64,000 bases of DNA, from positions 1,878,001-1,942,000 of the forward strand of contig NZ_LT906480.1 in assembly GCF_900186865.1 (NCBI RefSeq), written 5' to 3'. Numbering within the stretch: position 1 is the stretch's first letter; every line of letters begins with the position of its first letter. The translations under genes and the position numbers were made by a program. Shown here piece by piece: positions 8,501 through 59,684 of the stretch. This DNA comes from Stenotrophomonas maltophilia (lineage in GTDB: Bacteria; Pseudomonadota; Gammaproteobacteria; Xanthomonadales; Xanthomonadaceae). Below the pieces are notes generated by a model. It was not told where the DNA came from, made no database searches, and saw nothing but the letters and a program-made list of their open reading frames with translations.

Positions 8501-8854
8501 ATGCGCGACTGGCGCTGGATGCTGCTGGTGCTGGCCCTGCTGCTGGGCTGGCTGCAGTACCGCTTCTGGTTCGGTCCGGGCAATTCGGGCGAAGTGATGA
8601 TGCTCGAAGCCCAGGTCGCCAACCAGGAGCGGGACAATGAGGGTCTGCAGCAGCGCAACGACGCGCTCGCTGCCGAAGTGAAGGACCTCAAGGAAGGCCA
8701 GTCCGCCATCGAGGAGCGCGCACGCAGCGAGCTGGGCATGATCAAGCCCGGCGAGAAGTTCTATCGTGTGGTCGAGGATGCGCCGGTCCACCCGGCGCAG
8801 CCTGCGGCAGGTGTCAGTGCGCAGGTTGGCGACCACCCGGCGGACGTGCCATGA
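8501..8854 (+). CDS. ftsB: Cell division protein FtsB
   Basis: Bitopic inner-membrane protein of the FtsQLB divisome complex, which helps activate septal peptidoglycan synthesis. The 117-aa sequence has the expected plan: a short cytoplasmic start (MRDWRW), one membrane helix ([18 protein letters not shown]) and then a periplasmic coiled coil ([20 protein letters not shown]...). The coil ends in the family motif [17 protein letters not shown] proline-rich tail of about 25 residues extends past the usual E. coli length. Position directly after eno and 4-bp overlap with ispD (ATGA) match the conserved eno-ftsB-ispD-ispF cluster. Confidence 0.93.
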
Positions 8855-9549: not shown

Positions 9550-9583
9550 CCGCCCGCGTGGCCCTGCTGCAAGGGTTGCATCC

Positions 9584-10081
9584 ATGAGCACCGCACCGTT
9601 CCCGCCCGTCCGCATCGGCCAGGGCTACGACGTCCATGCCTTCGGCGAAGGCGATCACATCATGCTTGGCGGCGTGAACGTTCCACACAGCTGTGGCGTG
9701 CTTGCGCACAGCGATGGCGACGTGATCCTGCACGCCTTGTGCGATGCGATGCTCGGTGCGCTGGCGCTGGGCGACATCGGCCAGCATTTCCCACCCAGTG
9801 ACAACCGCTGGAAGGGCGCCGACAGCAGCGACTTCGTGCGTCATTGCGACAGCCTGCTGCGCGAGCGCGGCTGGCGCGTCGGCAACACCGACATCACCGT
9901 GATCTGCGAGCGGCCGAAGGTTGGCCCGCATGCGCTGGCGATGCGTGAGCGCATCGGCGGCCTGCTGCAGTTGCCGCTGGATGCAGTCAGCGTCAAGGCC
10001 ACCACCTCGGAAAAACTGGGCTTCACCGGCCGTGGTGAAGGCATTGCCGCACAGGCGGTCGTGTTGCTGGTGGCGGCATGA
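9584..10081 (+). CDS. ispF: 2-C-methyl-D-erythritol 2,4-cyclodiphosphate synthase
   Basis: Cyclises CDP-ME 2-phosphate in the MEP pathway with release of CMP. At 165 aa it is normal for this trimeric zinc enzyme. Motifs seen: [14 protein letters not shown] (metal-binding Asp and His), [29 protein letters not shown] and the C-terminal [17 protein letters not shown]. The ATG at 9584 is chosen over the long open frame upstream, which only runs through ispD out of frame. It overlaps truD by 4 bp (ATGA). Confidence 0.97.
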
Positions 10082-11109
10082 TTCCGCTGCCGTTGGCATT
10101 TGGTGCGCCGTTGTTGACGGCGCGCATCCGCACCACGCCAGACGATTTCCAGGTTGACGAGCTGCCGGCCTTCGAGGCCACCGGTGAAGGCGAGCACCTG
10201 TTGCTGCACATCCGAAAGCGCGGTGCCAACACCGTGCATGTGGCCAAGGTGCTGGCCAAGTGGGCGGGCCTGCCGGAAATGGCGGTGAGTTACGCCGGCA
10301 TGAAAGACCGCCACGCGGTCACCACCCAGCGTTTCAGCGTGCACCTGCCCAAGCGCATTGCGCCGGACCTGGCCGAGCTGGCCAGTGACGAGATCGAAGT
10401 GCTCGAAGCGACCTGGCACAACCGCAAGCTGCAGCGTGGCGCACTGGCCGGCAACCGCTTCAAGCTGGTCCTGCGCGAGGTGCAGGGCGATGCCGCAGCG
10501 ATCAGCGAACGCCTGCAGCAGATTGCCGGGCGCGGCCTGCCGAACTGGTTTGGCGAGCAGCGCTTTGGCCGCGACGGCGGCAACGTGCCGGCGGCATTGG
10601 CGATGTTCGGTGGCCGCCGCATGCGCAAGGACCAGCGTTCACTGCTGCTGTCTGCCGCCCGATCGGCGCTGTTCAACCGCGTGCTGGCTGCGCGCGTGGA
10701 GCAGGGCAACTGGGATCAGCCACTGGACGGCGAGGTGTGGATGCTGGACGGCAGCCGCAGCGTGTTCGGCCCGGAGCCGTACACCGACGTGCTGGCCGAG
10801 CGCCTCGCGCGGTTCGACATCCATCCCAGCGCACCGCTGTGGGGTGAAGGCGAGCTGCGCAGCACCGAAGCGGCACGCGAGCTGGAGCTGGCCGCACTCG
10901 ACGACGAGGAATCGAAGGCACTGCGGGCCGGGCTGGAAGACGCGCGCCTGAAGCAGGAGCGCCGCGCGCTGCGCCTGCGCCCCGCGTTGTTGCAGCACCA
11001 GTGGCTGGGCGATGACGTGCTGGAGCTATCGTTCGCGCTGCCGCCGGGCTGCTACGCCACCGCCGTACTGCACGAGCTCGGCCCGGTCGAAGACGCCTCG
11101 CAGGCCTGA
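10078..11109 (+). CDS. truD: tRNA pseudouridine(13) synthase TruD
   Basis: Modifies U13 of tRNA-Glu to pseudouridine. The 343-aa protein carries the family signature around the catalytic Asp, [20 protein letters not shown], plus [20 protein letters not shown] near the start and [16 protein letters not shown] in the middle. The last gene of the eno-ftsB-ispD-ispF-truD run, overlapping ispF by 4 bp. An inverted SMAG pair follows directly after its stop and may act as a 3' boundary of the operon transcript. In many relatives surE follows truD; here an Smr-domain gene on the other strand lies between them. Confidence 0.96.
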
Positions 11110-32006: not shown

Positions 32007-32099
32007 GGAGTGATGCCCGAGTGGCCGAAGGGGCTCCCCTGCTAAGGGAGTATAGGGTCAAAAGCTCTATCGAGGGTTCGAATCCCTCTCACTCCGCCA
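32007..32099 (+). tRNA. tRNA-Ser (anticodon GCU)
   Basis: A 93-nt class II tRNA. Acceptor stem GGAGTGA / TCACTCC, discriminator G and encoded CCA (32097-32099). Anticodon stem CTCCC / GGGAG around loop CTGCTAA, so the anticodon is GCU for AGC/AGU codons. The long variable arm (TATAGGGTCAAAAGCTCTAT region) is typical of tRNA-Ser, and the T arm is GAGGG-TTCGAAT-CCCTC. Its 3' end is the likely attachment site of the island that starts immediately after it. Confidence 0.97.
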
Positions 32100-32109
32100 G
32101 TTGATAGGA

Positions 32110-32150
32110 AACGCCCGCAGATCAGTGATTTGCGGGCGTTTTTCTTTTTT
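32110..32150 (+). terminator. Rho-independent terminator after tRNA-Ser
   Basis: Stem AACGCCCGCA / TGCGGGCGTT around an 11-nt loop, then TTTCTTTTTT. It separates tRNA transcription from the integrase gene. It lies on the island side of the tRNA 3' end, so it arrived with the island or was restored by it. Confidence 0.9.
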
Positions 32151-32181
32151 CGGCCTTGGACACTCGCTTGGACACTCTGTC

Positions 32182-33660
32182 ATGCGAGTAGCGCACTACT
32201 TGGTCCGCGGCACGACTGGCCGCTTCTACGTTCGGCTGAAGGTGCCGAGCGATCTTCAATCCCTGCTGGGCTGCAAAGTCATCAAACGCGCCACCGCGAC
32301 GACCTGTGCGCGTGTCGCCACCGCTTGTGCGCTGGTGATGCAGGCAGGCTATGCTCAGATCTTCGCTGCCCTCAGGAATGACGGTATGGGACCGGAGCTG
32401 GATGAGCTCTTGAAGATGCTCAAGGGAAAGCCTATCCGCGAGTTGACCCTTCAAGGGGTCAAGCTGCCGGGTGGTGTGGAGCTGGGTCGTGTCGAGATCA
32501 ACGACGATCGTGATCGTGTGTTGTTTCAGGAGACCGTTCGCGATCTCTTGGCGCTCGACCCTTTGGCCGCCGCCGTCGAAGGCGTTGTGCCGCCCTCGGC
32601 GCCTCTTCCCTCTCGACCGGTGGACAATGAGCGGCCACCCGTGCCGGTGGGTATCACCCTTGCGGATGCGCGCGAGAAATATCTGTTGGGCATACAAGGT
32701 AAGAACGTTGGCAAGACCATCGTTCAGAAGCGGAAAGCGCTGGTTGACCTGGAGCTCTTCTTGGCAGGACAGCGCAAGAATGGCCGACCGGTGCTGTTGC
32801 AGGAGCTGACGCGCTTGGACTTCGCCGATTGGTTCTTGCATGAGCAGTCCTTGGGGCGGGTGATCACCTACATCGCCAACCGCTTCTCGGTTTGCGTGAC
32901 CTTCCTGGACTGGGCTCAAACCTCGGGCCTCTATCCCGTCGGGGATAACCCTGCGGAGGGTCACGCTCGGGTGTCAAAGCAGGTCAAGAAGCAGCGGGCC
33001 AAAACGCACGGCTCGCAGGCATTCTCTCCAGACCAGGTGCAGCGTGTCTTTGACCCCGAGAACTTCCGGCAACTGAAGGGAGATGCGGCTAAGTGGATCC
33101 CGCTCATCCTTCTCTACACGGGTGCGCGTTCCAACGAAGTGGCCCGCTTGGAGCTTGAGGACTGCCGGGAGGAGGAGGGCGTCCCGATCTTCCACTTCAC
33201 CTGGTTGGGCGAACACAAGAGCCTCAAGACCGACGCCAGTGACCGAAAGACGCCGGTGCATCCCGACCTCATCGCGTTGGGCTTGTGGGAGCGGGTGCGT
33301 AGGCTGAAGGCGGCTGGCGAGACCAAGCTCTTTCCGGAGCTGACGTTTGACGCCAAGAATGGGCCTGCCGGCAGAGCTCAGCACGCCTTCTCTCGCTACC
33401 TGGTCAAGCTGGGCATCAAGGCGCGCGGCGGCGGCAGGGTGGGGCACCACAGCTTCCGTGACACCGTGATCGGCGCGCTCAAAGCGAAGGGCGTCCACCG
33501 TGAGCTCCGGGAGGAGTACACGGGCCACGAGCTGTCCGACCGGCAAGAACATGCCCACGCTTATGAGACGGAGTTCGCGCCGCGGGCGCTGGCCGAGGCT
33601 TGCCACCCGGTGCTCCACTGGGGACTTCGGTTGGGCAGGGGGGACTTGGGTGAGGAGTGA
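32182..33660 (+). CDS. Tyrosine recombinase (island integrase)
   Basis: Site-specific integrase expected to act at the tRNA-Ser 3' end. The 492-aa protein starts MRVAHYLVRGTTGRFYVRLK, a DUF6538-like arm domain typical of island integrases. A core-binding SAM-like region and the catalytic domain follow. Catalytic residues are visible: Arg in LLYTGARSNEVARLE (about residue 316), His-x-x-Arg in GHHSFRDTV (about 422), and the Tyr in HAHAYETEF (about 460) after a TGHE motif. The ATG at 32182 is preferred over upstream starts that would read through the terminator. Position and direction (first gene after the tRNA) are standard for such islands. Confidence 0.92.
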   Translation: MRVAHYLVRGTTGRFYVRLKVPSDLQSLLGCKVIKRATATTCARVATACALVMQAGYAQIFAALRNDGMGPELDELLKMLKGKPIRELTLQGVKLPGGVELGRVEINDDRDRVLFQETVRDLLALDPLAAAVEGVVPPSAPLPSRPVDNERPPVPVGITLADAREKYLLGIQGKNVGKTIVQKRKALVDLELFLAGQRKNGRPVLLQELTRLDFADWFLHEQSLGRVITYIANRFSVCVTFLDWAQTSGLYPVGDNPAEGHARVSKQVKKQRAKTHGSQAFSPDQVQRVFDPENFRQLKGDAAKWIPLILLYTGARSNEVARLELEDCREEEGVPIFHFTWLGEHKSLKTDASDRKTPVHPDLIALGLWERVRRLKAAGETKLFPELTFDAKNGPAGRAQHAFSRYLVKLGIKARGGGRVGHHSFRDTVIGALKAKGVHRELREEYTGHELSDRQEHAHAYETEFAPRALAEACHPVLHWGLRLGRGDLGEE

Positions 33661-34287: not shown

Positions 34288-34627
34288 TACATAGTCACCC
34301 GCATTTCCACTTGTGCCATTCAAGGTCACTGAAACCCTAGCGGAGAAGAGATAACGGTCGAGCGGCTCACGGTCAATTCATTGTTTTGCTTCAGTGTTGA
34401 GGCCGGATGTGTGTCCTATCTTGTATCTCTCAGTTACAGACGCTCAATCGCTCTGTCAGTTGGGCTGGCGAGTAGAGCGGGCTCCCCTTGCTGGCATTGG
34501 ATATCGCAAATTAAAGAGTACTTGCCGGGCGCAAAATGTAAAGTCATAGCTCAATCTTTGGGATGTAAAGCGAGATATTGTCACCGGCGCGGTGAGGTGG
34601 GTGTATTTAGATGGAGCGAGCTGCGTT
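34288..34627. other. Intergenic, 340 bp, AT-richer
   Basis: No convincing gene on either strand. It holds the upstream region of the patatin operon; base composition falls here from the GC-rich integrase side to the AT-richer patatin side, suggesting a junction between blocks of different origin. No clear promoter could be fixed. Confidence 0.4.
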
Positions 34628-36355
34628 ATGAGTACCGAGAGGAAGGCCGTGGAGGCGAGAAAGGTTTACGTTGTGTTCCAAGGCGGAGGCGCCCGCGGGG
34701 CAGTCCACGTTGGTGCCTTGAAAGCACTAGAGCTAGCAGAATTTCCGCCGAAAGATCTATCAAAGCCAGCAACGAGACCTGAAATAGTAGGAGTGGCTGG
34801 TACCTCGGCCGGATCAATTATGGCCGCATTAGTGTCTGCGGGCTATGAATCTGATCAGATCCTAGATTTGAGCGGAAAGAGTGATCATCACGTCTTGAAA
34901 GGGCTGGAAGGATTTTCTTCTGGCTCACTTACCGGGCTCTTCACGGAGCGTGGATGGGCTAGGATAAAGAAGGCTAGGTGGATTGCAGAAAATACCGCCA
35001 TTCTTAAGTTTATGGCGGTGGACTTGCTGGCTGGATTGGTCTTTGCCTTATTTGCGGCCCCTACACTATTCGCGCTTTCATTGAGGGCTACTGGATTTCT
35101 GGTTGTATTCAGTGTGATTGTTGTGCTCTTAGTTGCTGGGTTGGTTTCATTTTTTAAGTTGTGCAAGTTGCTGAGAGAGGGGCTTGCTCCCCTTGATCAA
35201 GTTCGTGATGTCATTGATGAGGTGTTGGCAAATTCACCAATAAAGGACGGTATTTCCGGTGGGAAGGATATTACGTTCGAAGAGCTTAAAAATGCTGGTG
35301 GTAAGCCCCTCCGGATTGTCGCCACAAATTTGACAAAGAAGACGTTGCAGTTGTTCTCTGTGGATACTACTCCGGGGATTTCAGTTGCCAGCGCAGTGTG
35401 TGCTTCCATTTGTCTTCCTTTAATATTTAAACCGTATCCTATAAGGATGCCGGATGGGAGCATAAATGAGTTTGCGGATGGCGGGGTTGTCTCCAATCTG
35501 CCTCTGTGGGCTTTTGATGATGAGCGAATGTTCCAGCCAGATTGTTGGACGGTTGGGATTTCACTACGGTCTGCGGATTCATCCAGTGCTGCATCCGGGC
35601 ATTGGTTAGGGGCGATCATCGATGCCGTTGTGTCCGGTCCTCCGGAGATTCATGCTCGGAATATCCCAGGGCTGGTGATTGTCCCCGCGAAGACAAGGCT
35701 GCATCTATTGGATTTCGACAAGAGCCAGAAGTGCTATGTTGATGAGGCGGTTAATGTTGTAAATGAATCGACTATTGAGCTTTACAAGGCAGTTGCAACC
35801 CCATTTATTGAGTTAGTAGTGCAGCGTTTTGTAGGCTCACTTGAAGACACAATACGTAGCGCTTTGATTGAGGCGGACTTGCCGCATGACTTTACGCTGA
35901 AGGCGGCAATTGCCACGAGGCGAGGTGACGAAATCCTCAAGCTTTGGCCTAGGTTTGAGGTGGGATACGGCCCAGAAGAAGCGGCGGAGCGTCGGCGTCC
36001 TATTGCTAGGACTGTGCTGCGACAGGACAAGGTGTTCGTCCGGCAGGCTGAGAGACTGGGCGAGCAGGCGGATGATGATCTGTTCACAGATACTTCAGTT
36101 TGGCCACTGGCTGACAGCCTCTGGTGCCTAGCCATGCCTCTTGTGCTGGCAGGGGATACCACACAGCCGGATCCGCCTGTACTGGTGATTGAGTCATCGT
36201 CATTGACTCTGGATGGAATTTGCGCTATATACGGGGCGGGTGATTTGAAAAGTTCGTTCACCTCAGTGATCGATTCCGTCAAGCAGATTTTGTTAGCTGT
36301 GGATAAGGATTCGAAGCTGATCGATAGCGTCAGAGGTGCGCAGCTATGGAAATAA
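34628..36355 (+). CDS. Patatin-like phospholipase with internal membrane hairpin
   Basis: A 575-aa protein with a complete patatin catalytic set: oxyanion loop QGGGARG (G19-G24), nucleophile Ser60 in GTSAG, and catalytic Asp284 in EFADGGV. Between Ser and Asp lies an insert with two hydrophobic segments (about residues 129-150 and 156-176), so the enzyme is probably membrane-anchored. The C-terminal 290 residues have no recognised domain. Patatins hydrolyse membrane lipids, and several act as abortive-infection effectors (CapV in CBASS). No cyclase is nearby. GC content is clearly below that of the core genome. Its stop overlaps the next gene by 10 bp. ATG 34628 is chosen for its upstream GGAG. 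Confidence 0.85.
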   Translation: MSTERKAVEARKVYVVFQGGGARGAVHVGALKALELAEFPPKDLSKPATRPEIVGVAGTSAGSIMAALVSAGYESDQILDLSGKSDHHVLKGLEGFSSGSLTGLFTERGWARIKKARWIAENTAILKFMAVDLLAGLVFALFAAPTLFALSLRATGFLVVFSVIVVLLVAGLVSFFKLCKLLREGLAPLDQVRDVIDEVLANSPIKDGISGGKDITFEELKNAGGKPLRIVATNLTKKTLQLFSVDTTPGISVASAVCASICLPLIFKPYPIRMPDGSINEFADGGVVSNLPLWAFDDERMFQPDCWTVGISLRSADSSSAASGHWLGAIIDAVVSGPPEIHARNIPGLVIVPAKTRLHLLDFDKSQKCYVDEAVNVVNESTIELYKAVATPFIELVVQRFVGSLEDTIRSALIEADLPHDFTLKAAIATRRGDEILKLWPRFEVGYGPEEAAERRRPIARTVLRQDKVFVRQAERLGEQADDDLFTDTSVWPLADSLWCLAMPLVLAGDTTQPDPPVLVIESSSLTLDGICAIYGAGDLKSSFTSVIDSVKQILLAVDKDSKLIDSVRGAQLWK

Positions 36356-38460: not shown

Positions 38461-39210
38461 TTACTTGTCGCGGTTGCCGGCCGGATCAAAGCCGGCGATC
38501 CACATGCGGCTGTCGCGGAACGGCGTCAAGATTCCGGAGGGACCGGGATAGAGGTCATCAGCTCGCAAGAAGCCGGACACCCAAGCGGTGCTCAGGGCAA
38601 TTCTCCGGGCCTGCCATGCCACGCCCTCTCGGGTCGTGCGCACGTTGAACGGTTCCCTGGGTGGGGTAGGGCCGGTGGTTCGGTCGTCGCCGGTGTTCGG
38701 CTTCCCAGGGCGTACCCTCAAGCCCACCATCAAGTCGGTGGTGGCCTTGGCTCGGGCGTTGCTGTTGAGCTCCGCTTCTTCCCCCAAGTCGTCCCGGATG
38801 GTCAACGGGGCGTCCGCGCACGCGCGGAAGGTCTCGGTGGTGGAGGCGGTGGCGCCGGTCCAGATCCGGGCTTCCACGGTCCAACAGGGCAAGCTTGCGC
38901 CCCATTCCTTGTAGGTCAGCGCGACCCGCGGCCAGTCCAGCAGGCCCTGCTGGGCGGCCTGGTGGTTCTCGTTCTTGAACAGCCCGTTGATGTGGCCCGC
39001 ACCGCTGATTGGGGTGTAGAGCGGGCCAGCGGCGGACGTGCTGCTGGTTGCTGGCTTGGCGCCCAGTGCTTGCTGGCCCGCGTCTTTCAGGCTCTTTCCC
39101 AGCTGCCGGAAGAAGCCGGGCTTCGTTTCAGAGGGTGCTTGGGCCAAGGCGGGGAAGCTGGCGATGGCCAGTGCGAGGAGCGCGACGGCTCCTTGTCGTG
39201 CGTGCTGCAT
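38461..39210 (-). CDS. Secreted protein of unknown function
   Basis: A 249-aa protein starting MQHARQGAVALLALAIASFP with a clear signal peptide ending ALA-Q. The mature part has LYTPISGAGHINGLFKNENH, then WPRVALTYKEWGASLPCWTV and TTETFRACADAPLTIRDDLG, and two regularly spaced Cys. It is probably periplasmic. The start at 39210 replaces a longer open frame whose first 23 residues do not give a signal. First gene of a minus-strand run with a lipoprotein and a membrane protein, divergent from the XRE regulator. All three products are cell-envelope proteins. Confidence 0.65.
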   Translation of the reverse strand: MQHARQGAVALLALAIASFPALAQAPSETKPGFFRQLGKSLKDAGQQALGAKPATSSTSAAGPLYTPISGAGHINGLFKNENHQAAQQGLLDWPRVALTYKEWGASLPCWTVEARIWTGATASTTETFRACADAPLTIRDDLGEEAELNSNARAKATTDLMVGLRVRPGKPNTGDDRTTGPTPPREPFNVRTTREGVAWQARRIALSTAWVSGFLRADDLYPGPSGILTPFRDSRMWIAGFDPAGNRDK

Positions 39211-39322
39211 GGGTAATCCCCTGTAGACCACCGACGCGGTGGCATTTACGATAATCGCAGATGTGCATTCCGGTTCCAACCGTCAGACTTGGAAGGAGTT
39301 CAGCTGTGGTGCAAGATTCCGG

Positions 39323-39655
39323 ATGCCCCAACCCAAGACGCCCGCGACGGTCTATGGCAAGCGCCTGCGCAGTGCGCGGGTCGCGAAGGGTTGGACGCAA
39401 GCCCAGCTCGCTGAGCGCATTGGCATGGTCGACTCGGTGTCGGGAGCGACGAGGGTGAGCCGCTACGAAACAGGGCAGCACGACCCAGACCCGGCCACTT
39501 CAGAGGCTCTGGCGAAGGCGCTCGGTCTTCCGGTGGCCTACTTCCACGCCACGTCCGACACCCTCGCTGAGGTCATCCTGCTGGTCTCACGACTGCCTGC
39601 GTCCAAGCAGAAGGAAGCGTTGAAGAGGCTGCGCGAACTGTCAGAATCTGCTTAA
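39323..39655 (+). CDS. XRE-family transcriptional regulator
   Basis: A 110-aa protein with a helix-turn-helix of the Cro/C1 type: YGKRLRSARVAKGWTQAQLA, ERIGM, then SRYETGQHDPDPATSEALAK and ALGLPVAYFHA. The C-terminal part (LVSRLPASKQKEALKRLREL) is a short helix. An insertion VDSVSGAT inside the turn before the recognition helix is unusual. It lies between the divergent envelope-protein run (starting at 39210) and the converging UvrD-like gene, so it may control the former. GGATG context gives a weak ribosome site at 39323. Confidence 0.8.
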   Translation: MPQPKTPATVYGKRLRSARVAKGWTQAQLAERIGMVDSVSGATRVSRYETGQHDPDPATSEALAKALGLPVAYFHATSDTLAEVILLVSRLPASKQKEALKRLRELSESA

Positions 39656-39682: not shown

Positions 39683-40948
39683 CTATTGCTTGAAGGGCGG
39701 CGCATCGATGTGCTTCTTCGCCTGAACGAGTACCAGGCACTCCACTTTTGCCCGGGTCACCGCGTTGTAGAGCAATCGCCGCTTTTGTTCACTGTCTCCT
39801 GGCGTTGCAGCAGGCCAAAGAACCACAACATGGTCGAATTCTCTGTTTTTTGCCCTGTGCACGGACATCGCCTTGTAACCGAAGTCCGAAGAGCGCTGGA
39901 ACCTGACGCGGCTTGCACAAATCTGTTTAACGGCGGCTGAGAGCATCTCTCGAGAGATAGCTACGTCACGCTTGGTCCGAATCAAGCGGTCCACCCAGTT
40001 GGCAAACTCATCATAGAGACCTTGATTGCCTGTCGCTCTCACGGCCTCCAAAGCCTCGGCTGGGGTAGCAACAGCGGGAGCCACTATCCGAGCCAAGAGT
40101 GCTTCCACGACCTTTTCCTCGGCCTGTTCCCAATCGACTCGGTAGGGCCCATTGCCCTGCTTGGTGGCTTTGGTGGCAGACGTCATCACAGTCTCTTCTG
40201 CGAAGGCCTTCACTACAGGGGATATAACTGCCAAGGACTTCTCCCTTACCTTCCATGCGATCTGGTTACTCAAGAAGGTAGACGCCAGTGCAGCGTTCGC
40301 TGTCGCTCTGACAGAGAACCGGGGGCCGATGGGGAGATCCAAGCCAGACCTGAGTGCAGCGGCGGCGTTGAGCAATGAATCCACGTTTGTGCGCATCGTC
40401 CGCTCCAGCTTTACGTGGTCTTCTTGGGTTTGGAGCCAGCCCCATGCCGGATTCGGTCGAAGGTCACCGTCCAGGCACTGGAACTCATCGGCAGCAATGA
40501 GCGTTGTCAGTTCCGATGCGAGGTGACGGACGACATCTAGGCGGTTTGCAGAGAGATCCTGAGCCTCGTCAATGATCAAGATGGGATATGAGGCCTTCAC
40601 CCAGAGCACGACGCGGCGGTGGTTGAGAAGGGCTGCGGCTACCCGGCACGTCTCTTCGTATTCGGATTCACGCGGCTCACCGTAGTGCTCCTGGGTAGCC
40701 AGCGACTGCCAGCGTCGAACAAGCCGGGCGGCGAAGCTGTCTAGTGTGGCGCATTCGTAACGACGTTCAATTCCCGGAACCCGGGCAAGTCGATCATCTA
40801 AGCGTCGCCTAGCGCCGTGCATGAAGGTCAGCGCTAAAACCTTACTTCCGATCTCCAAAGGCGTCTCGGCAATGACCTCTGCAAGCTTCTGCATCAGCTG
40901 GTATGTCTTTCCACTGCCCGCCCCGCCGGAAAAGACGGTAACGGTCAT
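39683..40948 (-). CDS. UvrD-like helicase, GajB-like
   Basis: A 421-aa superfamily 1 helicase. Walker A FSGGAGSGKTYQLMQK at residues 7-15, motif II ILIIDEAQDLSANRLD, a motif-III-like IAADEFQCLDG, and C-terminal motifs (YKAMSVHRAKNREFDHVVVL; RRLLYNAVTRAKVECLVLV). It is shorter than UvrD (about 720 aa) and close in size to GajB of Gabija anti-phage systems. Its ATG overlaps the stop of the OLD-type gene by 4 bp, the usual GajA-GajB (class 2 OLD) gene order. In Gabija, GajB senses or processes DNA and works with the GajA nuclease; function here is inferred from order and domains. Confidence 0.85.
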   Translation of the reverse strand: MTVTVFSGGAGSGKTYQLMQKLAEVIAETPLEIGSKVLALTFMHGARRRLDDRLARVPGIERRYECATLDSFAARLVRRWQSLATQEHYGEPRESEYEETCRVAAALLNHRRVVLWVKASYPILIIDEAQDLSANRLDVVRHLASELTTLIAADEFQCLDGDLRPNPAWGWLQTQEDHVKLERTMRTNVDSLLNAAAALRSGLDLPIGPRFSVRATANAALASTFLSNQIAWKVREKSLAVISPVVKAFAEETVMTSATKATKQGNGPYRVDWEQAEEKVVEALLARIVAPAVATPAEALEAVRATGNQGLYDEFANWVDRLIRTKRDVAISREMLSAAVKQICASRVRFQRSSDFGYKAMSVHRAKNREFDHVVVLWPAATPGDSEQKRRLLYNAVTRAKVECLVLVQAKKHIDAPPFKQ

Positions 40949-42729
40949 GGCTGGAAGACCCAGATGTTCTCGGCCCTGCTAAAGCGGGCGCTCTCCAGAT
41001 CGGCGCAGGCCAACGCCATGCCTTGGAATAGCTCCGACGCTCGCCCTCTACATGCCTCGTTGCTGACGATGGCATCCGCGATAGACTCGTAGAGCACCAA
41101 GTCGCACTTCTTCGTTTTTGCATGCGCTACGACCATGGGCACATCGGCATCCGCCAACGTCGGAGTATCCCTCGTTACTACCGCAATCGCAGCTGGGTCA
41201 GCAGAGAAGATCCAAGACAGGACATCTTCCAGCATCTGACCATCGGACCACCTGATGATAGAGCCGGGACGAGCCCCCGCCTGAGCAAGTTCCGCGGAGT
41301 ATCGGAAGCCTTCTCCGTCGCCGTCCACAAGGCAGCAAACGCACGGATGCAACCGCTGAAGGTCGGTCCAAGTCTCAACAACCTTGGCATCTTCGGTTGG
41401 AACTAGGCCGACCTCCAACCCGAATGAGTGAGCATGCTCGCCTGCCCAGCCTTGTCTAAGCATGAGTGGCTTGAGAAGTGTCTGTAGCAACAGGTGATCT
41501 GAACGGCCCTCGGGGACCAGCACAAACGAGTGCATGAGGGCGTTAATGACCTCAGTCCGGTTGTGCTGATAGAACTTGCGTCGCCAGTTAGCCGTTTGAC
41601 CATCAAGATTTTTCTCCAAGAAAGGCTTGGCGGTCAAAATCCCACCAGTGTTTCTAAGCAGCAAGACGGAGGTGGGATCAGCCATCGCGGCAATGGTTGG
41701 AGAGTGGGTGGTGACAAATGTCTGTGAGGACAGTGCTTGGACTCTCAGCACAATCTGCTGCTGAGTTGCCGGAGGCAGATGAAGCTCTGGCTCTTCCAAG
41801 GCCATGGTGAAGCCTTCGCCGCCTTTAGCACGCAGTCTTCCAAGCTCAAGGAGGAGGAACAGCCCCTGCAATGAAATCAAACCGTTTCCTTGGCGGGCGG
41901 CGGGCACACTAGGTCCGTTCGGCACAGCGTAGTGGGCCGCCACGGCATCCAATACCGAGCGGCTGTCCGTGGAAGTGACACGAAGCCTCAGCTTAGGCGA
42001 GCCTGCAATACAGCGCGCGACCTCATCGTTCACGCTGTTAACTAGGGGCGCAATCTGCCTGTCGTCCTCAATGGCTGTTTCAGGCGATCGCAGCTGGTCC
42101 CGCTGGGCAATGATAGCGCCGGCTGGCTGCGCGGCTGCGGCATGGAGGGTCCTGCGAAAGAGCTCGCTGCCCCACGACAGCACTCGATCCCAGGTCCGAC
42201 TTGCTCTAACCAGGAAGAACCCAAAATGCTGTATGAGCCGATGGGGAACCGCTACCGGCGAGTCCTCATCGAAAGGGTCGACTGCGCCATCGTGGTCGTG
42301 GAAGTAGCGCACGACCTCCACTGTGAGTGACAGCCGGTCAAAATAGGCTTGAACTGCAATCTGGCAGCAGAGTTGTTTAGCGGTCTCTGTCGGCAACGGG
42401 TGAATCTTGCCGGTCGCCTCGTCCAACCACTTCGGGACAGCGCGTCCATCTCTGAACCATTCGGAGTGCTGATTGGGGTCATTGCCTTCAAAGCCCGTGA
42501 TAGTCGCAATCAGCTTGATGCGGTCATCCGGCAGTGGATCCGACCCAAAGAAGTCGTGCTCCGTGAGGTCCCGTATCAGACGATCCCTACCAAGGATCAG
42601 GGTGAGGGCCTCGATAACAGTGGTTTTGCCGGTGTTGTTGCTCCCAACTAGCACCACGTGTTTGCTGAAGCGCAAGTAGCCCTCACTCACGCCACGGAAG
42701 TTATGGATGGCAAGATCTGCAACTCGCAT
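40945..42729 (-). CDS. OLD-family ATPase-TOPRIM nuclease, GajA-like
   Basis: A 594-aa protein. The ABC-type ATPase domain starts MRVADLAIHNFRGVSEGYL with Walker A VGSNNTGKTT (G29-T37). The late signature/Walker B region is FTMALEEPELHLPPATQQQI with THSPTIAA. The TOPRIM nuclease domain follows: FVLVPEGRSDHLLLQTLL (catalytic Glu) and CCLVDGDGEGFRYS (metal-binding Asp-x-Asp). This is the GajA/OLD layout. It overlaps the UvrD-like gene by 4 bp and follows the HEPN/zinc-ribbon gene after 61 bp. Predicted to cut DNA when nucleotide pools fall during phage infection, as shown for Gabija; this is transfer from the family. Confidence 0.88.
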   Translation of the reverse strand: MRVADLAIHNFRGVSEGYLRFSKHVVLVGSNNTGKTTVIEALTLILGRDRLIRDLTEHDFFGSDPLPDDRIKLIATITGFEGNDPNQHSEWFRDGRAVPKWLDEATGKIHPLPTETAKQLCCQIAVQAYFDRLSLTVEVVRYFHDHDGAVDPFDEDSPVAVPHRLIQHFGFFLVRASRTWDRVLSWGSELFRRTLHAAAAQPAGAIIAQRDQLRSPETAIEDDRQIAPLVNSVNDEVARCIAGSPKLRLRVTSTDSRSVLDAVAAHYAVPNGPSVPAARQGNGLISLQGLFLLLELGRLRAKGGEGFTMALEEPELHLPPATQQQIVLRVQALSSQTFVTTHSPTIAAMADPTSVLLLRNTGGILTAKPFLEKNLDGQTANWRRKFYQHNRTEVINALMHSFVLVPEGRSDHLLLQTLLKPLMLRQGWAGEHAHSFGLEVGLVPTEDAKVVETWTDLQRLHPCVCCLVDGDGEGFRYSAELAQAGARPGSIIRWSDGQMLEDVLSWIFSADPAAIAVVTRDTPTLADADVPMVVAHAKTKKCDLVLYESIADAIVSNEACRGRASELFQGMALACADLESARFSRAENIWVFQP

Positions 42730-42790
42730 GATTTCCCTATGCGTTGGCGGACGAGGACCTCCTCGAGAACCACAAATGTCCTACGGCTTT

Positions 42791-43747
42791 CTACCGGTCT
42801 CGCTCCCTCTCTGCGACATAGCGGTGATATGAACAGATTGTTTCGCCATACTCGTCTAGGCCAAGTGGCTGTGAACAGACGGCGCATTCGATCGGCTCAA
42901 GCTCAAAGCCGCAGGCGAGGCACATCTCCTCCTCGTGAACATATGCCTCCTTGTTACATTCTGGACAGGTATCCAGGGGGTCAGGCCCGCCATCCTTTGC
43001 AGCCAGGAAGCTTGCGCCGGCAAAGAAGTTAGGAAGGATGCGACCAAGCCACTCCTGATTTGAGCTGCTATGACCGCAAGCTCGGCACGCCCACTGGGCC
43101 TCAAATGGGTTGGTGTTTTGGGCTTGAGTTTGCCTGACCAAATGGGAGCTGCACTCAGGGCACCCCTCGCGCTCAATAGCATCCGTCAGCGAGGTAGGCC
43201 CGTCGATTGGAGCGTAAGACGCCCTGCACTCTGCTCTGAGGCGGTCTTCGATCTCCTTCTCGGCTACTAGGAGGGCCCAGGAGTCGTCGTCTATCTCGTC
43301 CTGAGGGTCCACCCCTAGGTGCTTCGGCATGAACTGAGAGAGGAAAAGAAGACCGTCAGCGAAAGCGCCTCGGATCTGACCCACGTCATCAACGTGGTGG
43401 TGCTCGACCCGGTTCCTGACTCGTGTGATACGGTCTAAGAGCTTTCCATCTGCTTCAATGCCGAGCGATTTAAAGCGGGAAATGATCTCAGAGACGTCAA
43501 CTGTCGTCTTTCCAGACCCCTCAAAGATGACTTTCCCATTGTCATCCAGCGACGGGCTGATTTGCTTCCAAATCAAGATCTCGTCTTCGGGCGACAGGCG
43601 GCGAAGCTTCTCTTTACACAGGAGGAGAATGCCGGCGGTCAGGTTTCGGACGGCTGAAGACAGTCGGGGTGGGGACCCTTCGTTGAAATCCTCCACGCCA
43701 ACCTGTATCGCGTTGAGCGCGTTACGGTATATCGGATGCTCCGGCAT
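42791..43747 (-). CDS. HEPN-like protein with C-terminal zinc ribbons, in operon with OLD/UvrD
   Basis: A 318-aa protein, first gene of the OLD-UvrD operon. The N-terminal 150 residues are helical and end with RVRNRVEHHHVDD; R111-N-R-V-E-H116 fits the Rx4H active site of HEPN ribonucleases, including the polar residue after Arg. The C-terminal half has cysteine pairs of zinc ribbons: C196/C199 with C221/C224, C261/C264 with C276/C279, then C288/C291 with C305/H308. Such ribbons bind nucleic acid or protein. This gene is not part of standard two-gene Gabija. It may be a second effector or a sensor. The HEPN call is from the motif only. Confidence 0.75.
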   Translation of the reverse strand: MPEHPIYRNALNAIQVGVEDFNEGSPPRLSSAVRNLTAGILLLCKEKLRRLSPEDEILIWKQISPSLDDNGKVIFEGSGKTTVDVSEIISRFKSLGIEADGKLLDRITRVRNRVEHHHVDDVGQIRGAFADGLLFLSQFMPKHLGVDPQDEIDDDSWALLVAEKEIEDRLRAECRASYAPIDGPTSLTDAIEREGCPECSSHLVRQTQAQNTNPFEAQWACRACGHSSSNQEWLGRILPNFFAGASFLAAKDGGPDPLDTCPECNKEAYVHEEEMCLACGFELEPIECAVCSQPLGLDEYGETICSYHRYVAERERDR

Positions 43748-44482
43748 GACCCATCCCCTTTTGGTTTATTGAAGGATAGAACGTCTTGGGCTCGGAAGGC
43801 GAGGCTTCCAACCGCTTCTTTGGATGAATCGGTAGGGTAATGGACTGGATCCTTGGGTGAGGTCAACACTATTGAAATTCTGTGGAACTTACGTTCGACT
43901 GCTGACAGTATGGCTGGTGGCCAAGAATGCTCTCATGAGAGAGCGCTCTGGCGGGGACGCCAGCCCCGTTAATAGAGAAATGGGTTATGAGTCTTGTCTC
44001 ATTTGCATGCAGTTCTGCCTTGGCCCTGACTACACTCAATCGCTCAACGCAGAGATCAAACAGCTAGAAGAAGGAGCCGGTCGAGAAGCGCGGCAGGGAA
44101 CGACGTCCCCCCTGGATGAGTGAACTTTGCTCCTGAGTAGCCCATGTTGCAAGTCGCCAGAAGTCGAAGCTCTCCTCCGACTTGAGCCTGCCTGGAGTAC
44201 GTTCGGAACCCGACGCTGTCGACTATTTGATCAGGAGTTCACTGGGCTCTTTGCCCTTCTGCACCAGCGCAGCCAGCCACCTCGGTTGTCGGCCACGTTC
44301 TGGTCAGGCTGTCCTGCAGAAACGCGAGAGGAGCTGCCCAGTGAAACTCCCTTGTGGCGCGTCACTTGGTGGTCCCCCGCACTCTCGGTCACTGGCCAAA
44401 AACAAGAGTCCTAAGGTTCCTAGATGCGTTTCCAGTATGGCCGGCTGAAGTCGGGTTTCAATGGTCGTGCTGTCATTCGATC
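43748..44482. other. Intergenic, 735 bp, with hns-type remnant
   Basis: Holds the promoter region of the minus-strand HEPN-OLD-UvrD operon at its left end and a broken H-NS-type gene end (44223-44302). Open frames on the plus strand (for example at 43857-44123) lack ribosome sites and protein-like composition. Otherwise I see nothing convincing. Confidence 0.5.
44223..44302 (-). pseudogene. Remnant of an H-NS-type gene (C-terminal end only)
   Basis: On the minus strand this encodes GRQPRWLAALVQKGKEPSEL then LIK and a TAG stop, matching GRQPRWLASLIQKGKEPSEF-LIK at the end of the intact H-NS-like gene at 57492-57836. Upstream of this the similarity breaks: the TWSGRG part is shortened and out of frame and the rest is missing. 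It is therefore the tail of a second, deleted copy, probably left by recombination or an insertion-deletion event within the island. Confidence 0.75.
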
Positions 44483-45362: not shown

Positions 45363-48300
45363 TTAGATGCGGTGCCAAGAGGATGTGGGGTCTAGGGCTA
45401 CCAGATAGTGGCGTCCGTGCAGCTTTTCGATCGAAGTCAGAAAGTGGTGGCGCAGAACGGAGTCCCCTGCGAGCTGACCATGGATTGCGGACAGGAATGC
45501 GTCCCGATCCTCCCTCAGCCCATCAAACGACCGCTGAATCGCGGCATCAATGTCTTCGTCTGGATGCTGCTGGCTGCGCGAGAACGTCGGCAGTGGGGTT
45601 TCCACCCACGACTGCGCCTCTTCGGGCTCGTGGCGGTTTGCATCCAGTGCTTCGGACAGCGATTCGTAGGCTTCCTTGAAGCGAGGGTCTTTCAGTTTTT
45701 CTTCCAACGAGATTGCGGATCGCGCCAACTCCAATGCACTTTCTATCGTGCTTCTTTCAGCGAAGATTCGGTGCTTCAAGTCGGACGTCGCGCTTTGCAC
45801 AGCGCTGGCGCGGGAAACATTGCGATTGATCTCCGCCAGCCCATTGTTGAAGGATTCGAGCAAGGAGAAGAGTGTCCGACTGGGAGGTGTAGGCTGGGGA
45901 ACGGAGGCAGAGCGGACCGGCTGGCTCGGGTGCACCGCCGACGCGCGTTTCGGGAGCGACGGTGGGGTGGCGAGCGGAGAGGGGTCTACACCGCGTCGCC
46001 TCGGCTTGTAGCTGCAAACGGGGAAATTGGAACAGGAGCGAAACTCCCCATAAGGGCCGGTGCGCAGCACCAGCACGCCTTGCTTGCATGCCGGACACGC
46101 TTCTTCCTTGACGGCTTCGCCATCGGTGTCAGTGATCCCCAATATCCCGTCTTCCACCAACTCCCGAAGGAACATCGAGCGTTGACCACGGGCGGTGAAC
46201 ATCGCCACGGTGCGCCGGGCCCGGGTCAGGGCCACGTAGAAGAGCCGGCGCTCTTCGCCCAGCGGGAAGGTGTCTCCTTCGGGCATGGCAAGGGCCAACA
46301 CCGGATCGTCGGTGCGGGTGTTAGGAAAGCTGCGCCGACGCGGGGCGCTGATCATTTCCGGGAGGATGACGTAGTCCGCTTCGCTGCCTTTCGAGCGGTG
46401 GATGGTCAGAAAGGAAACCTCCACCCAGCGGTTGAACCGGCTTTGCCTCATCGGCACATACTGCCGATCGGCGTTGTAGCGGCCCAAGACATAAACCGAC
46501 ACCTTGCCGTTGCGCCCCGGCGGGATCGTGCCATCGCGCACCCCCTCGGCCAAGTTCACCACGAAGCGGTCGATTGCATCGGCCAGCTGGTCCTTGGTGT
46601 CCACCTGGAACGCTTGGAGCACTGGGCCATGGGCAGGGGTGGCCGAATGCACGCGCTTGGCGATCTGCCCCAGGTTCTTGGAGACAAATGCACTGGAGAC
46701 GTCGCACAGCGCCTGGGGGCATCGGAACGTTTGCTCCAGCTTGAGCACTTGGCCGTGACCAAACCACTGGCGAAAGCCGGTCATCACCGACACGTCCGCG
46801 CCGGCAAAGCGGTTGATTGACTGCCAATCGTCGCCCACAGCGAAGAGGAAGCGGCCCTTGCCTTGGACCAGTGCACGGCACAACCGGGCCCGGGCGCGCG
46901 AGGCGTCTTGGAACTCGTCGGCCATCACCAGGTCGTAAGGCGATTCCACGCGCCCGCCTTCCAAATGGCTGGCGGCGAGGTTGAGCATGTCCTCAAAGTC
47001 GATGCCATCCTCTGCTGCCAGGGCTTCGTCCCACGCCGCCATCACCGGAACGGCGATGTCCAGGAACATCTGGTAGCGCAGCTTGAAGGTGTCGGCGGGC
47101 ATCGCGTCCAACCGCTGATGCAGATCCGATGCGCTCAAGCCGTTGCTCTTGGCGTGGCTCATAAACGTGCGCACCAGCCCAACGAGCTCGACCGATGCCA
47201 TGGGCTGCTGGCCTTCCTTGGGAATCTCCCGGTCAGGGTTGGGATCGAGCACCAACCCCCGGTCGGTCAGTTCGCGCTCCAGCCGATCGAAGTCGTCGCC
47301 GTGGCGCAACCCGTGGCTGGTGGTTTCAAACAGCTCGGTGCCTTTCTCCGCGTGAAGCTGTCGCTTCCAGATCACCCCATCCATGTAGCCTTCGAAGTGC
47401 GCTGGTGGCACGCCATTGGCGTCGAGCGCGAAGTGCTCGTGGAACAGGTTCAAGTCGGGGTAGTAGAAATCGGGCTTGTATTGCCGGTGCGTTTCGTCGG
47501 CGGTGCGGTGGGGGTAGGGGGCCTCGTAGCGGTAGTCGACTCCGTTTAAGAAGAGCAGGTTGGCGATCATCACCTCTTCCACGCTCTTCACCCGCTCGCC
47601 GCGGTTGGTGACCAGCGCGCCCTTGCCTTGGGCGTCCCATACGTCGGACGGCTCCGGTGCACCAAACGCTGGAAGGTCCTTGCCAAAGACGAAGCGGAAC
47701 AGGTCCCACTGGCGGCGGAACGTGGGCGACTGGTCTTTGAGCTGGTCCACGAGGTCGGTGAGCTTTCGCACGCCACCAGCCGCGTCGGTGGCCCAATCGG
47801 GAACGTCGGGCTTTTCCCTGGTGGCCTTGCCGATGAGGCGCAAACCAAGCGCGTGGAAGGTGGACGCCTCCACGGTTACGTCCCCCATGCCCAAGCGCTC
47901 AAACGCCAAGACCGCGCGCTTCTTGAGCTCTTCGGCGGCGTCCGTGTTGAACGCCAGCAGGACGATTCGCTTGGGATCCACGAACCCGCGGTGGATGGCG
48001 TAGGCCGCCTTGGCCACCATGGTCGAAGTCTTGCCCGAGCCGGCCGAGGCCACCACCTGCACACGGTTGTCGAAGCACACCACGGCCCTTGCCTGTTCCG
48101 GGGTGAGCGGTCTGCTCTCCACCCGGTCCAGCAAGTCTTTGCAGGCCACCAATTCGCGGTCCACGTGGGCAGCGTTGAGCGCGGCCCATGCAGGGCGGTG
48201 GTCGGCTTCCCACGCTGCCAGCGAGCGCTCGATCGCCTGGGCAGCCGGTCCCAATCGAACCGCCACGCCCGGCTTTTTTAGGCGCGATCGAAGACCGGCC

Positions 48301-48755
48301 GCATCCATCTTGGGGCGGGCAGCGAGGACGTCCTCCTGCTGCTCGTGGGTGAACCAGCGGCGCTGCTCCAAACAGCCCCGCTCCTGGTCTGCCTTGTGGT
48401 CCAGCCACACGTCTATCGAGCGCTGCTGGCCCTTGAGGAACGCCACGTCCTCGCGCAGGCGTTTCTCTGTCAATGCCACGTTCAACGCTTGAACCAAGGC
48501 GGCGCCCTGGACGTTGGGCAGCCCGTCGGCCCTTACTTCCCGGCCCTGCCCAGGATGGAACGTGATGTCGGTCCAGAAGGTGCCGGTGTTGACGCGGTAA
48601 GTGGCCTCGTCCTCGACGTTGACCCGGTGGGTGCGTCCGTCCAGCGCCAAGGCGAGCTCCAAGCCCTCAAGGCGCAAACGCCAATCCGATGATCCCGTTA
48701 CGTGTCGGCCCGCCCACGACGGGGTCCATTCCTTCGCCATCCTTTTGCTGTCCAT
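45363..48755 (-). CDS. Large UvrD/Rep-like helicase with nuclease-like insert and zinc ribbon
   Basis: A 1,130-aa protein. The N-terminal 190 residues resemble the DNA-binding front of helicase IV-type proteins. Walker A is VVASAGSGKTSTM (about residue 238), motif II is VMADEFQDASRARA (about 611), and late motifs are FLTIHRSKGSEADYVILPEM and RRLFYVALTRARRTVAMFT. Between them an insert has YKPDFYYPDLNLFHEHFALD (about 425) with a later Lys, fitting a PD-(D/E)xK nuclease fold. After the helicase, CPACKQGVLVLR...CSNFPVCSY (885-915) is a topoisomerase-type zinc ribbon, followed by a long unknown tail. An alternative ATG lies at 48740. It is next to an HNH gene. Confidence 0.85.
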   Translation of the reverse strand: MDSKRMAKEWTPSWAGRHVTGSSDWRLRLEGLELALALDGRTHRVNVEDEATYRVNTGTFWTDITFHPGQGREVRADGLPNVQGAALVQALNVALTEKRLREDVAFLKGQQRSIDVWLDHKADQERGCLEQRRWFTHEQQEDVLAARPKMDAAGLRSRLKKPGVAVRLGPAAQAIERSLAAWEADHRPAWAALNAAHVDRELVACKDLLDRVESRPLTPEQARAVVCFDNRVQVVASAGSGKTSTMVAKAAYAIHRGFVDPKRIVLLAFNTDAAEELKKRAVLAFERLGMGDVTVEASTFHALGLRLIGKATREKPDVPDWATDAAGGVRKLTDLVDQLKDQSPTFRRQWDLFRFVFGKDLPAFGAPEPSDVWDAQGKGALVTNRGERVKSVEEVMIANLLFLNGVDYRYEAPYPHRTADETHRQYKPDFYYPDLNLFHEHFALDANGVPPAHFEGYMDGVIWKRQLHAEKGTELFETTSHGLRHGDDFDRLERELTDRGLVLDPNPDREIPKEGQQPMASVELVGLVRTFMSHAKSNGLSASDLHQRLDAMPADTFKLRYQMFLDIAVPVMAAWDEALAAEDGIDFEDMLNLAASHLEGGRVESPYDLVMADEFQDASRARARLCRALVQGKGRFLFAVGDDWQSINRFAGADVSVMTGFRQWFGHGQVLKLEQTFRCPQALCDVSSAFVSKNLGQIAKRVHSATPAHGPVLQAFQVDTKDQLADAIDRFVVNLAEGVRDGTIPPGRNGKVSVYVLGRYNADRQYVPMRQSRFNRWVEVSFLTIHRSKGSEADYVILPEMISAPRRRSFPNTRTDDPVLALAMPEGDTFPLGEERRLFYVALTRARRTVAMFTARGQRSMFLRELVEDGILGITDTDGEAVKEEACPACKQGVLVLRTGPYGEFRSCSNFPVCSYKPRRRGVDPSPLATPPSLPKRASAVHPSQPVRSASVPQPTPPSRTLFSLLESFNNGLAEINRNVSRASAVQSATSDLKHRIFAERSTIESALELARSAISLEEKLKDPRFKEAYESLSEALDANRHEPEEAQSWVETPLPTFSRSQQHPDEDIDAAIQRSFDGLREDRDAFLSAIHGQLAGDSVLRHHFLTSIEKLHGRHYLVALDPTSSWHRI

Positions 48756-57956: not shown

Positions 57957-59354
57957 CTACGGGTAGAACTTGTCTGGATCGCTTAGTTGTTTCGCGAACT
58001 GACCTCTCTGGTAGATCGGCAATTCGACCGGTGGCGCGTAGCGACTCAGGAGATCGATCTGCTTCCTTCTGGCGAGTTCTGGTTTCTTGTGGAAGTAGGC
58101 CTCATGCAGCACCGGCACCTTCTTGCTGATGCTGTGGCCCGTCAGCAAGGCAATGTCCTCGTCGGGAATTCCTTTGTGATGGAGCTCCGTGGCGATGGTG
58201 TGCCGAAACGCGTGTAGCCCAATACCCTTCCCGAAACCTAGGCTCTTCAGGTATGTGCTGAACTGGTTGAGGGCGGCTTGGCTGTAACGCTGGTTCGACT
58301 CACCCGTCTTGCGGTTCACGCCGGCGGTCAGGTGTGGGAACAACCGGGGATGACCGCATGCCCGGATATCGGCCACGAAATCGAGGAAGCCCGCATTGAG
58401 CACTGGGGTGGGGATGGGGAGGGTGCGAATGGCTGCCTTCCCTTTCAGGCGCTGACGGCTTCGGTTGCGGGTCTTGTGCGCCAGGTCGGGATCGACGGTC
58501 TTCTGGATCCGGATGCACCAGACGCCGGCTTCTTGCACCACGTCCGCCAGTTTGAGCTGGGCGATCTCGTTGATGCGCGCTCCCGTGCAGAGGCCGAGGA
58601 TGGGAAGCCACCAGCGGTGGGGGTACTTGCTAGCCCATGGGACATATGTCCCATGGTCGAAGATGCGCTTGAGTTCTGCATCGTCAAACAGGCGCTCGGG
58701 CTTGTTCGGATCCACGACCAAGTCCTTCTTGATCTCGTCGAAGGCGACCATCGGTGAGGCACCGATGGCCTTGGATTTCTCAAGCTTCTTGAAGAAGGTC
58801 GATAGGAAGCGCCGGTGTTTCTCAAGCGTGGCGGGGGCCGGTGGGGCCACGTTGAGTTGCCTTCCACGCGCGACCGCTTGGTCGTAGGTAAACCTGCGGT
58901 ACTCTGGGTCGGACAGCAGACGGTCTGGGGCCCAGCGAATGAGGTCCCATAGCTTGTAGATGTGAGCGTGGTCGATGCGGGTGACCGGTATGTCCCCGCA
59001 CGTCATTAGAAGCAGCCGTAGGGTGCGAGAGGTCGCCTCGACGGTCTCTCTGGCCAGGCAGCTGTAGTCGCCGCGATTGCGGATGTAGTCGTCAATCTCT
59101 ACGGAGAGCGAGCGCCCGGGTGTGCCCGCCGGCAGCGGCTCGGGATACCGTGTGCCGTTCTTCGTCGAACGTGCGCGGCGGGTGCGTTCATAGGCGGCAT
59201 TGAGAATCTCTTGGGCCTGGATCGCGGCCTCTCGGCTGGTGATCACCAATTTTCCGATGCTGAGCCTGCCGATCCGGATATCGGACATCTCCAGCGAGCC
59301 GCTGGGATCGTCCAGATAGGATTGGAGGGGGCTTGAGGGTTGAGCCAGGCGCAT
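57957..59354 (-). CDS. Tyrosine recombinase (second integrase)
   Basis: A 465-aa site-specific recombinase unlike the first in sequence and on the other strand. Catalytic residues: Arg in LGLCTGARINEIAQLK, His-x-x-Arg in GLHAFRHTIATELH, a TGHS motif, and Tyr in VPVLHEAYFHK. The N-terminal half has a SAM-like core-binding domain (IDDYIRNRGDYSCLARETVE). Start: ATG 59354 with GGAAG 6 bp before; a TTG at 59411 would give a longer form. It suggests that a second mobile unit makes up or ends in this part of the island. Confidence 0.88.
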   Translation of the reverse strand: MRLAQPSSPLQSYLDDPSGSLEMSDIRIGRLSIGKLVITSREAAIQAQEILNAAYERTRRARSTKNGTRYPEPLPAGTPGRSLSVEIDDYIRNRGDYSCLARETVEATSRTLRLLLMTCGDIPVTRIDHAHIYKLWDLIRWAPDRLLSDPEYRRFTYDQAVARGRQLNVAPPAPATLEKHRRFLSTFFKKLEKSKAIGASPMVAFDEIKKDLVVDPNKPERLFDDAELKRIFDHGTYVPWASKYPHRWWLPILGLCTGARINEIAQLKLADVVQEAGVWCIRIQKTVDPDLAHKTRNRSRQRLKGKAAIRTLPIPTPVLNAGFLDFVADIRACGHPRLFPHLTAGVNRKTGESNQRYSQAALNQFSTYLKSLGFGKGIGLHAFRHTIATELHHKGIPDEDIALLTGHSISKKVPVLHEAYFHKKPELARRKQIDLLSRYAPPVELPIYQRGQFAKQLSDPDKFYP

Positions 59355-59684
59355 TGAGGGCTTCCATCGTTTCGATGGAAGTACAGATAAAGCAGCCTCA
59401 GCAATCGTCAATGGAAATAGGTCGGTCGCGTGCCGACCGTAGGCATCTATTGTGAGTGCCCATTAATGCTTCTTCAGGAAAAGAAAATTACGCAGGAATT
59501 GGAGGGATTCAATCCTTGAAAATCAATGGCTTGGCTGGATAAAGATTATGTCGAATCGCAGTCATTACGGTACTGTTTAATTTCTATAAGCTAACAGCGC
59601 CCTTTGGGTTGTTATGTTAGTTCTGTACGGCTGATAAACGTTGCGGAGAATTGAGGGCTGAGAACTCACTTTGGAGGCGGAGCT
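59355..59684. other. Intergenic, 330 bp, AT-rich
   Basis: Upstream region of the second integrase (minus) and of the gene at 59685 (plus). Clearly AT-rich around 59460-59630, consistent with divergent promoters, H-NS binding or a recombination site. No gene and no clear attachment repeat was identified. Confidence 0.5.

Follow-up and report, generated by a model that had tools for sequence, protein, structure and literature searches.

Gabija is an anti-phage system of two genes, which suffice for protection against certain phages, and its GajA protein is a nucleotide-regulated DNA nicking enzyme, according to the available text of PMC8136825. Class 2 OLD proteins are defined by an adjacent UvrD-like helicase in the available text of PMC10568477, and in that same text on Gabija the term HEPN does not occur. 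In the available part of PMC3710099, DUF3644 is a named HEPN family, and zinc ribbons are given as a reported fusion partner of EC042_2821, a HEPN family overlapping DUF3644 (its Table 1). The defence database PADLOC lists a further phage defence candidate, PDC-S64 (models PDLC05058 and PDLC05059). We take the S in this name to mean single gene; the name itself was found in no paper of the open-licence literature searched.

We analysed a stretch of 64,000 nucleotides of Stenotrophomonas maltophilia (NZ_LT906480.1, positions 1,878,001 to 1,942,000), referred to here as the window, in which genes of both kinds lie next to each other (Table 1). Our data indicate, with a probability of roughly 80%, that these are two independent defence units side by side in a variable island, a Gabija-type pair and the single-gene candidate PDC-S64. 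This reading is based on homology, motif conservation, lone-gene distribution and the absence of recurrent linkage. The original prediction had joined the three genes into an expanded Gabija system. The layout on which it was built is borne out by the ORF coordinates: three minus-strand ORFs of 318, 594 and 421 aa form a tight run, with a gap of 61 bp between the HEPN/zinc-ribbon and OLD genes and an overlap of 4 bp between the OLD and helicase genes. Third-position GC is 0.64-0.65 across the three genes, their codon-position GC is alike, and no terminator-like site was found between the HEPN/zinc-ribbon and OLD genes by promoter and terminator scans, which were uninformative. Co-transcription of the HEPN/zinc-ribbon gene with the pair is possible given the spacing, strand and composition and the lack of a terminator. 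A gene 1.6 kb upstream of the HEPN/zinc-ribbon gene (45363-48755, minus strand) encodes a UvrD/helicase IV-like protein of 1130 aa that has a zinc ribbon of the topoisomerase type.

Table 1. Features of the locus, in window coordinates
Feature	Position	Strand	Basis
HEPN/zinc-ribbon gene (predicted), 318 aa, PADLOC PDC-S64	42791-43747	-	ORF; PDLC05058 8.8e-43; model mean pLDDT 90.3
Rx4H motif R111-H116 (RNRVEH), predicted RNase site	43400-43417	-	R111 and H116 in 44/44
Cys-rich C-terminal part, residues 196-308	42824-43162	-	five CxxC pairs, C305 and H308
OLD-family ATPase with TOPRIM-like motifs, GajA-type, 594 aa	40945-42729	-	PDLC00086, motifs, invariants, PDB profile matches
UvrD-like helicase, GajB-type, 421 aa	39683-40948	-	PDLC04173 9.8e-24, motifs, PDB profile matches
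Helix-turn-helix gene at site border, convergent with helicase gene	39239-39655	+	Pfam HTH_31/HTH_3
Flanking gene present at this site also in X. bromi and G231 (59%)	38461-39279	-	locus comparison

The identification of the OLD and UvrD genes as a Gabija pair held up. The OLD protein matches the PADLOC GajA model PDLC00086 (1.7e-48 over residues 1-417, mainly the ATPase part) and the helicase matches the GajB model PDLC04173 (9.8e-24), while the Pfam domains of the two are AAA_15/AAA_21 and UvrD. Walker A (residues 29-36), the H-loop (341-344) and TOPRIM-like residues E407 and D469/D471 are present in the OLD protein and are invariant in an alignment of 11 family members. The TOPRIM domain claimed for it is thus seen in its motif residues, and no Pfam TOPRIM family is listed at E<=1. 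The helicase has the SF1 motifs Walker A (8-15), DEAQ (127) and VTRA (397). An OLD-type ATPase with TOPRIM active-site residues by motif and an adjacent UvrD-like helicase are therefore both found, and the window pair is most likely a two-gene Gabija-type system with a predicted GajA-type OLD nuclease and a GajB-type helicase.

A search of the 318-aa protein against defence databases had been proposed for checking the original prediction. We ran it, and the best PADLOC model was PDC-S64 (8.8e-43), with residues 5-285 aligned to model positions 9-287 of 305. The model is matched over most of the protein, which places it in PDC-S64; the original prediction could not match its expanded Gabija to a described subtype, but the protein itself is already listed as a candidate by PADLOC. 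Pfam gave weak zinc-ribbon matches only, all below the cut-off, and no match to a HEPN family. When the protein is shuffled 20,000 times, an Rx4H motif appears in 48% of the results; chance can supply it, and the evidence for HEPN is therefore the conservation of the motif and not its mere presence. The alignment comprised the window protein and 43 others (3 of 47 were left out as broken or fragmentary, and two pairs are identical in sequence). R111 and H116 of the Rx4H motif, K45 and 11 cysteines are kept in 44/44. E115 is found in 42/44, and the residue after R111 is N in 43/44 and H in 1/44, in agreement with the HEPN pattern, an Rx4-6H whose R is followed by a polar residue. At position 308, 23 of the 44 proteins have C, 17 have H and 4 have D. 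We read the Cys array of residues 196-308 as about three putative zinc ribbons.

An AlphaFold model built with 24 sequences has a mean pLDDT of 90.3. It places helices at 5-23 and 26-51, an insert of a beta-hairpin and a helix at 60-94, and helices at 101-117 and 122-144; the third long helix, which follows the insert, ends in R111-H116. The four-helix HEPN layout described in the available text of PMC3710099 agrees with this, having an insert between helices 2 and 3 and a motif that ends helix 3. Foldseek of the whole model against the PDB gave nothing at E<=0.001; the HEPN toxins 8yuf (0.63) and 8xeh (0.54) had the top probabilities among the 50 PDB matches listed, and nuclear receptors, at TM-scores near 0.15, made up most of the others listed. 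With the N-terminal domain alone there was no HEPN entry among the best 50 of 260 PDB matches and nothing at E<=0.001. Profile comparison of the family with the sequences of solved structures gave zinc-finger, zinc-ribbon or chance-like matches only. Among predicted viral structures the best match was BFVD A0A8S5V3T9, a 302-aa protein of a siphovirus that is uncharacterised in function (E 2.6e-3, probability 1.00, TM-score 0.34).

Remote relatives provide a link to a named HEPN family. The alignment of L012, from Streptomyces, to the HEPN/zinc-ribbon family has a probability of 96.9% and takes in the RNxxxH motif. L012 also matches DUF3644 in PADLOC (6.9e-15), as does L011; in Pfam neither of the two matches DUF3644. 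With L012 as query, this remote branch matched 131 plasmid records, 52 from Streptomyces and 26 from Escherichia. The N-terminal part may alternatively be some other helical domain without HEPN RNase activity, in which case the protein would be a regulator or a DNA- or RNA-binding sensor. The lack of a match to a Pfam HEPN family and of a fold match at E<=0.001 would fit such a domain, but R111, N112, E115 and H116 are kept in 42-44 of 44 proteins, the topology agrees with the HEPN description in the available text of PMC3710099, and L012 ties the family to DUF3644, so that we regard this alternative as unlikely. Motif conservation, topology and family links make the assignment of the N-terminal part as a HEPN domain likely, not proved, with no fold match reaching E 0.001.

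For the mechanism of the protein we favour, at little better than even odds, a predicted RNase coupled to a zinc-ribbon sensor. The N-terminal HEPN domain would act as a metal-independent RNase, the zinc-ribbon array probably senses infection-related nucleic acid or protein and would then release or direct the RNase, and the RNase action would halt growth of the infected cell. The enzymatic part is predicted from conserved residues and published HEPN chemistry, and zinc-ribbon sensing and an abortive outcome are inferred.

Genes of this family are found on mobile elements, and their neighbours vary between loci, plasmid and chromosomal. The 15 plasmid records with a HEPN/zinc-ribbon gene include 8 conjugative, 4 mobilizable and 3 non-mobilizable plasmids. 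Another 23 carriers are IMG/VR contigs found with sub-family alignments as query; the window protein alone retrieved no close relatives in viral contigs. There was no match in 50,697 GenBank phage records, so phage carriage rests on the IMG/VR contigs. A PHROG scan of picked neighbours in 5 of these 23 contigs gave at least one phage gene of a known category in each, and the neighbours picked in L061, L080, L071 and L079 are genes of head protease, minor head protein, integrase and repressor type. One single-linkage cluster of neighbours is common to 14/46 loci, and its member in L067 is a phage baseplate protein. In L067, L068, L072, L073 and L075-L078 the HEPN/zinc-ribbon gene is convergent with this baseplate-containing cluster, a cargo position that recurs among IMG/VR contigs. 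In the 14 control genomes the PDC-S64 model had no match. Two other neighbourhoods were observed. In L052, a homologue of PD-Lambda-1 (7848-9290, 1.3e-180) lies directly upstream of the HEPN/zinc-ribbon gene on the same strand. In L005, a very long ORF for an AAA-family ATPase (5999-10927) lies 41 bp after the HEPN/zinc-ribbon gene; 1643 aa of it are within the stretch, whose end cuts the ORF, and it had no PADLOC match at 1e-5.

Linkage between the two units was examined from both sides. The 46 other HEPN/zinc-ribbon loci consist of 12 of the 15 plasmid records (H8, H10 and H14 were left out), the X. bromi locus, 3 genome loci from the family and class samples (247 and 369 genomes), 7 from a phylum sample of 398 genomes searched with the PDC-S64 model, and the 23 IMG/VR contigs. 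Weak partial matches in G069, G193, G579 and G649 were dropped before counting, L060 and L081 are one contig and were counted once, and L056/L069 and L075/L076, which have identical proteins, each count as two loci. The available sequence extends for 3.3 kb or more downstream of the HEPN/zinc-ribbon gene in 41/46 loci and equally far upstream in 31/46. OLD and UvrD family profiles, run on ORFs and in six frames, did not find the window's OLD-UvrD pair in any of the 46. The 16 OLD-family loci are 14 of 30 plasmid records (H16-H24, H26, H28-H31) with G231 and G969; the records left out were H25 and H27 (same figures as H24 and H26), H32-H40 and 5 more. A helicase is adjacent to the OLD gene in 15/16, and in the 16th the OLD gene is cut by IS6. 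The six-frame profile search for the HEPN/zinc-ribbon protein was negative in all 16 OLD-family loci, and none was found at two weaker OLD relatives (L040, L085). The original prediction had proposed counting how often close homologues lie directly upstream of OLD-UvrD pairs; with counts of 0/46 and 0/16 for the window's pair, a recurrent partnership is not supported.

The PADLOC scan covered neighbours in seven loci (L005, L006, L008, L013, L041, L052 and L061/L080, the last two taken together with single proteins each). In the Rhizobium plasmid loci L008 and L013, another Gabija type is encoded on the opposite strand at a distance of about 2-3 kb, with further genes in the interval; the best PADLOC model is PDLC00148 for the helicase of each locus and PDLC00102 for the GajA of L013, and in L008 the interval includes a Thoeris-type ThsB match. 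Upstream of its HEPN/zinc-ribbon gene, L041 carries an ATPase gene of another kind (PDC-M56A). Our UvrD profile missed the L008 helicase, which PADLOC calls GajB, so remote Gabija types may be missed in loci outside the PADLOC scan. The window's own Gabija type would not escape the profiles.

The same site in two relatives separates the units further. In Xanthomonas bromi (X. bromi), a HEPN/zinc-ribbon homologue with 76% identity lies at this site without the OLD-UvrD pair, whose place is occupied by an opposite-strand gene, and its whole genome (taken to be G192, with which the sequences agree) gave no OLD match at E<=1e-30. A 17-kb X. bromi stretch matches window DNA at 42795-43756, the HEPN/zinc-ribbon gene (71.6%), and at 38461-39190, the flanking gene (67%). 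Near the site these two genes account for all of the nucleotide match, and the stretch also matches part of an integrase-like gene of the window (58130-58712). An X. bromi integrase ends a few bases before the HEPN/zinc-ribbon gene, which is followed by the opposite-strand gene. Since this integrase abuts the gene, close spacing alone is no sign of function. An AAA_13-type ATPase of 744 aa (L002, 3933-6167) adjoins the integrase and HEPN/zinc-ribbon genes there, and a 347-aa neighbour is presumably a DUF3800 protein.

G231, of the same genus as X. bromi, carries a broken pair: it matches the window over the helicase and, in OLD, over the C-terminal part (77-80%), and over the flank (70%), and the G231 genome has no HEPN/zinc-ribbon gene. 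Its OLD gene is cut, and an ORF that looks transposase-like abuts the upstream side of the cut. A former upstream gene would therefore be hidden, and an ancestral HEPN/zinc-ribbon gene there is possible. The helix-turn-helix gene of the window has homologues in G231 (79%) and X. bromi (29%), and a CHAT-domain gene lies between the G231 helix-turn-helix gene and the broken helicase (L037, 4749-5798). The window also has a Patatin-like phospholipase gene in a clearly lower-GC stretch (34592-36355, plus strand), with a 39% homologue near the same site in G231. A tRNA-Ser directly followed by an integrase-like ORF (32007-33660) and a second integrase-like ORF (57957-59411), which is 53% identical to the integrase abutting the X. 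bromi gene, are possible edges of nested islands.

These halves, with 76-82% protein identity at this site in two congeneric genomes, and the similar composition of the three genes would fit a three-gene cassette ancestral in the Xanthomonas family and since broken up in relatives, so that the genes would be linked by descent with no general system. We consider such a cassette decidedly unlikely, as no second genome with all three genes was found, the HEPN/zinc-ribbon gene occurs in only 1/35 genomes of the genus and OLD in 1/35, another one, and the decisive junction in G231 is hidden by the transposase-like ORF. It is very improbable that a lone HEPN/zinc-ribbon RNase was captured into the Gabija transcript as a young lineage-specific composite, not a Gabija subtype, with a layered action in which Gabija would cut DNA and the HEPN enzyme would cut RNA once Gabija is triggered or failing. 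Also very improbable is an expanded Gabija with the protein as dedicated second effector or sensor of the pair, since the combination is absent from the 46 and 16 loci as searched, the same-site X. bromi homologue lacks the pair and published Gabija works with two genes (available text of PMC8136825), which outweighs the 61-bp spacing on one strand, the 4-bp overlap of the next two genes, the similar composition and the lack of a terminator.

The original prediction had named homologues scattered with no link to OLD-UvrD genes as its own refutation test; the homologues are scattered without a link to the window's pair, and the expanded Gabija fails by that test. A limited search of the open-licence literature found no published Gabija with a HEPN member. 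The HEPN/zinc-ribbon protein is thus very probably independent of Gabija in function, and the best reading is a mobile, predicted and probably RNase-type defence gene that landed upstream of Gabija. As the unit beside the pair, this PDC-S64 family member would be a single gene sufficient on its own, and in the simplest account the site is one where defence genes are replaced unit by unit. The false lead of a new Gabija subtype is thereby removed. What is left is a more useful lead, a conserved, mobile single-gene candidate whose RNase-like motif and zinc-ribbon array are both invariant. It occurs in chromosomes as well as in plasmids and IMG/VR contigs, and its trigger and target are testable with one gene.

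Compared with known systems, the locus has an already listed candidate family next to an established system; the observation behind the expanded Gabija was correct and was over-interpreted. The OLD ATPase with its adjacent UvrD-like gene, their ends overlapping, is similar to Gabija, and GajA and GajB are its best PADLOC models. The match of the OLD family profile to solved GajA (5.6e-9), however, stands behind lone OLD 6p74 (2.6e-15) and retron/PtuA ATPases, that of the helicase family profile to solved GajB (3.3e-6) stands behind UvrD/PcrA helicases, and the window helicase is shorter than the solved GajB chains (421 compared with 493-499 aa). We infer by analogy that the pair, distant from these solved proteins, would behave as the published Gabija model. 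The 318-aa protein shares with EC042_2821 and DUF3644, as given in the available text of PMC3710099, a HEPN-type conserved Rx4-6H, and its putative zinc ribbons recall the reported fusion partner of EC042_2821; it has no match itself to DUF3644 models in Pfam or PADLOC, and the link runs via the Streptomyces relatives. HEC-08 of PADLOC is a remote relative only, weakly matched by the window protein (0.024) and well by L011 (7.3e-18) and L012 (1.2e-18); no paper among the best literature matches listed has HEC-08 together with PADLOC. Compared with PDC-S64, nothing essential differs in the window copy, which is set apart only by its location 61 bp before a Gabija-type pair.
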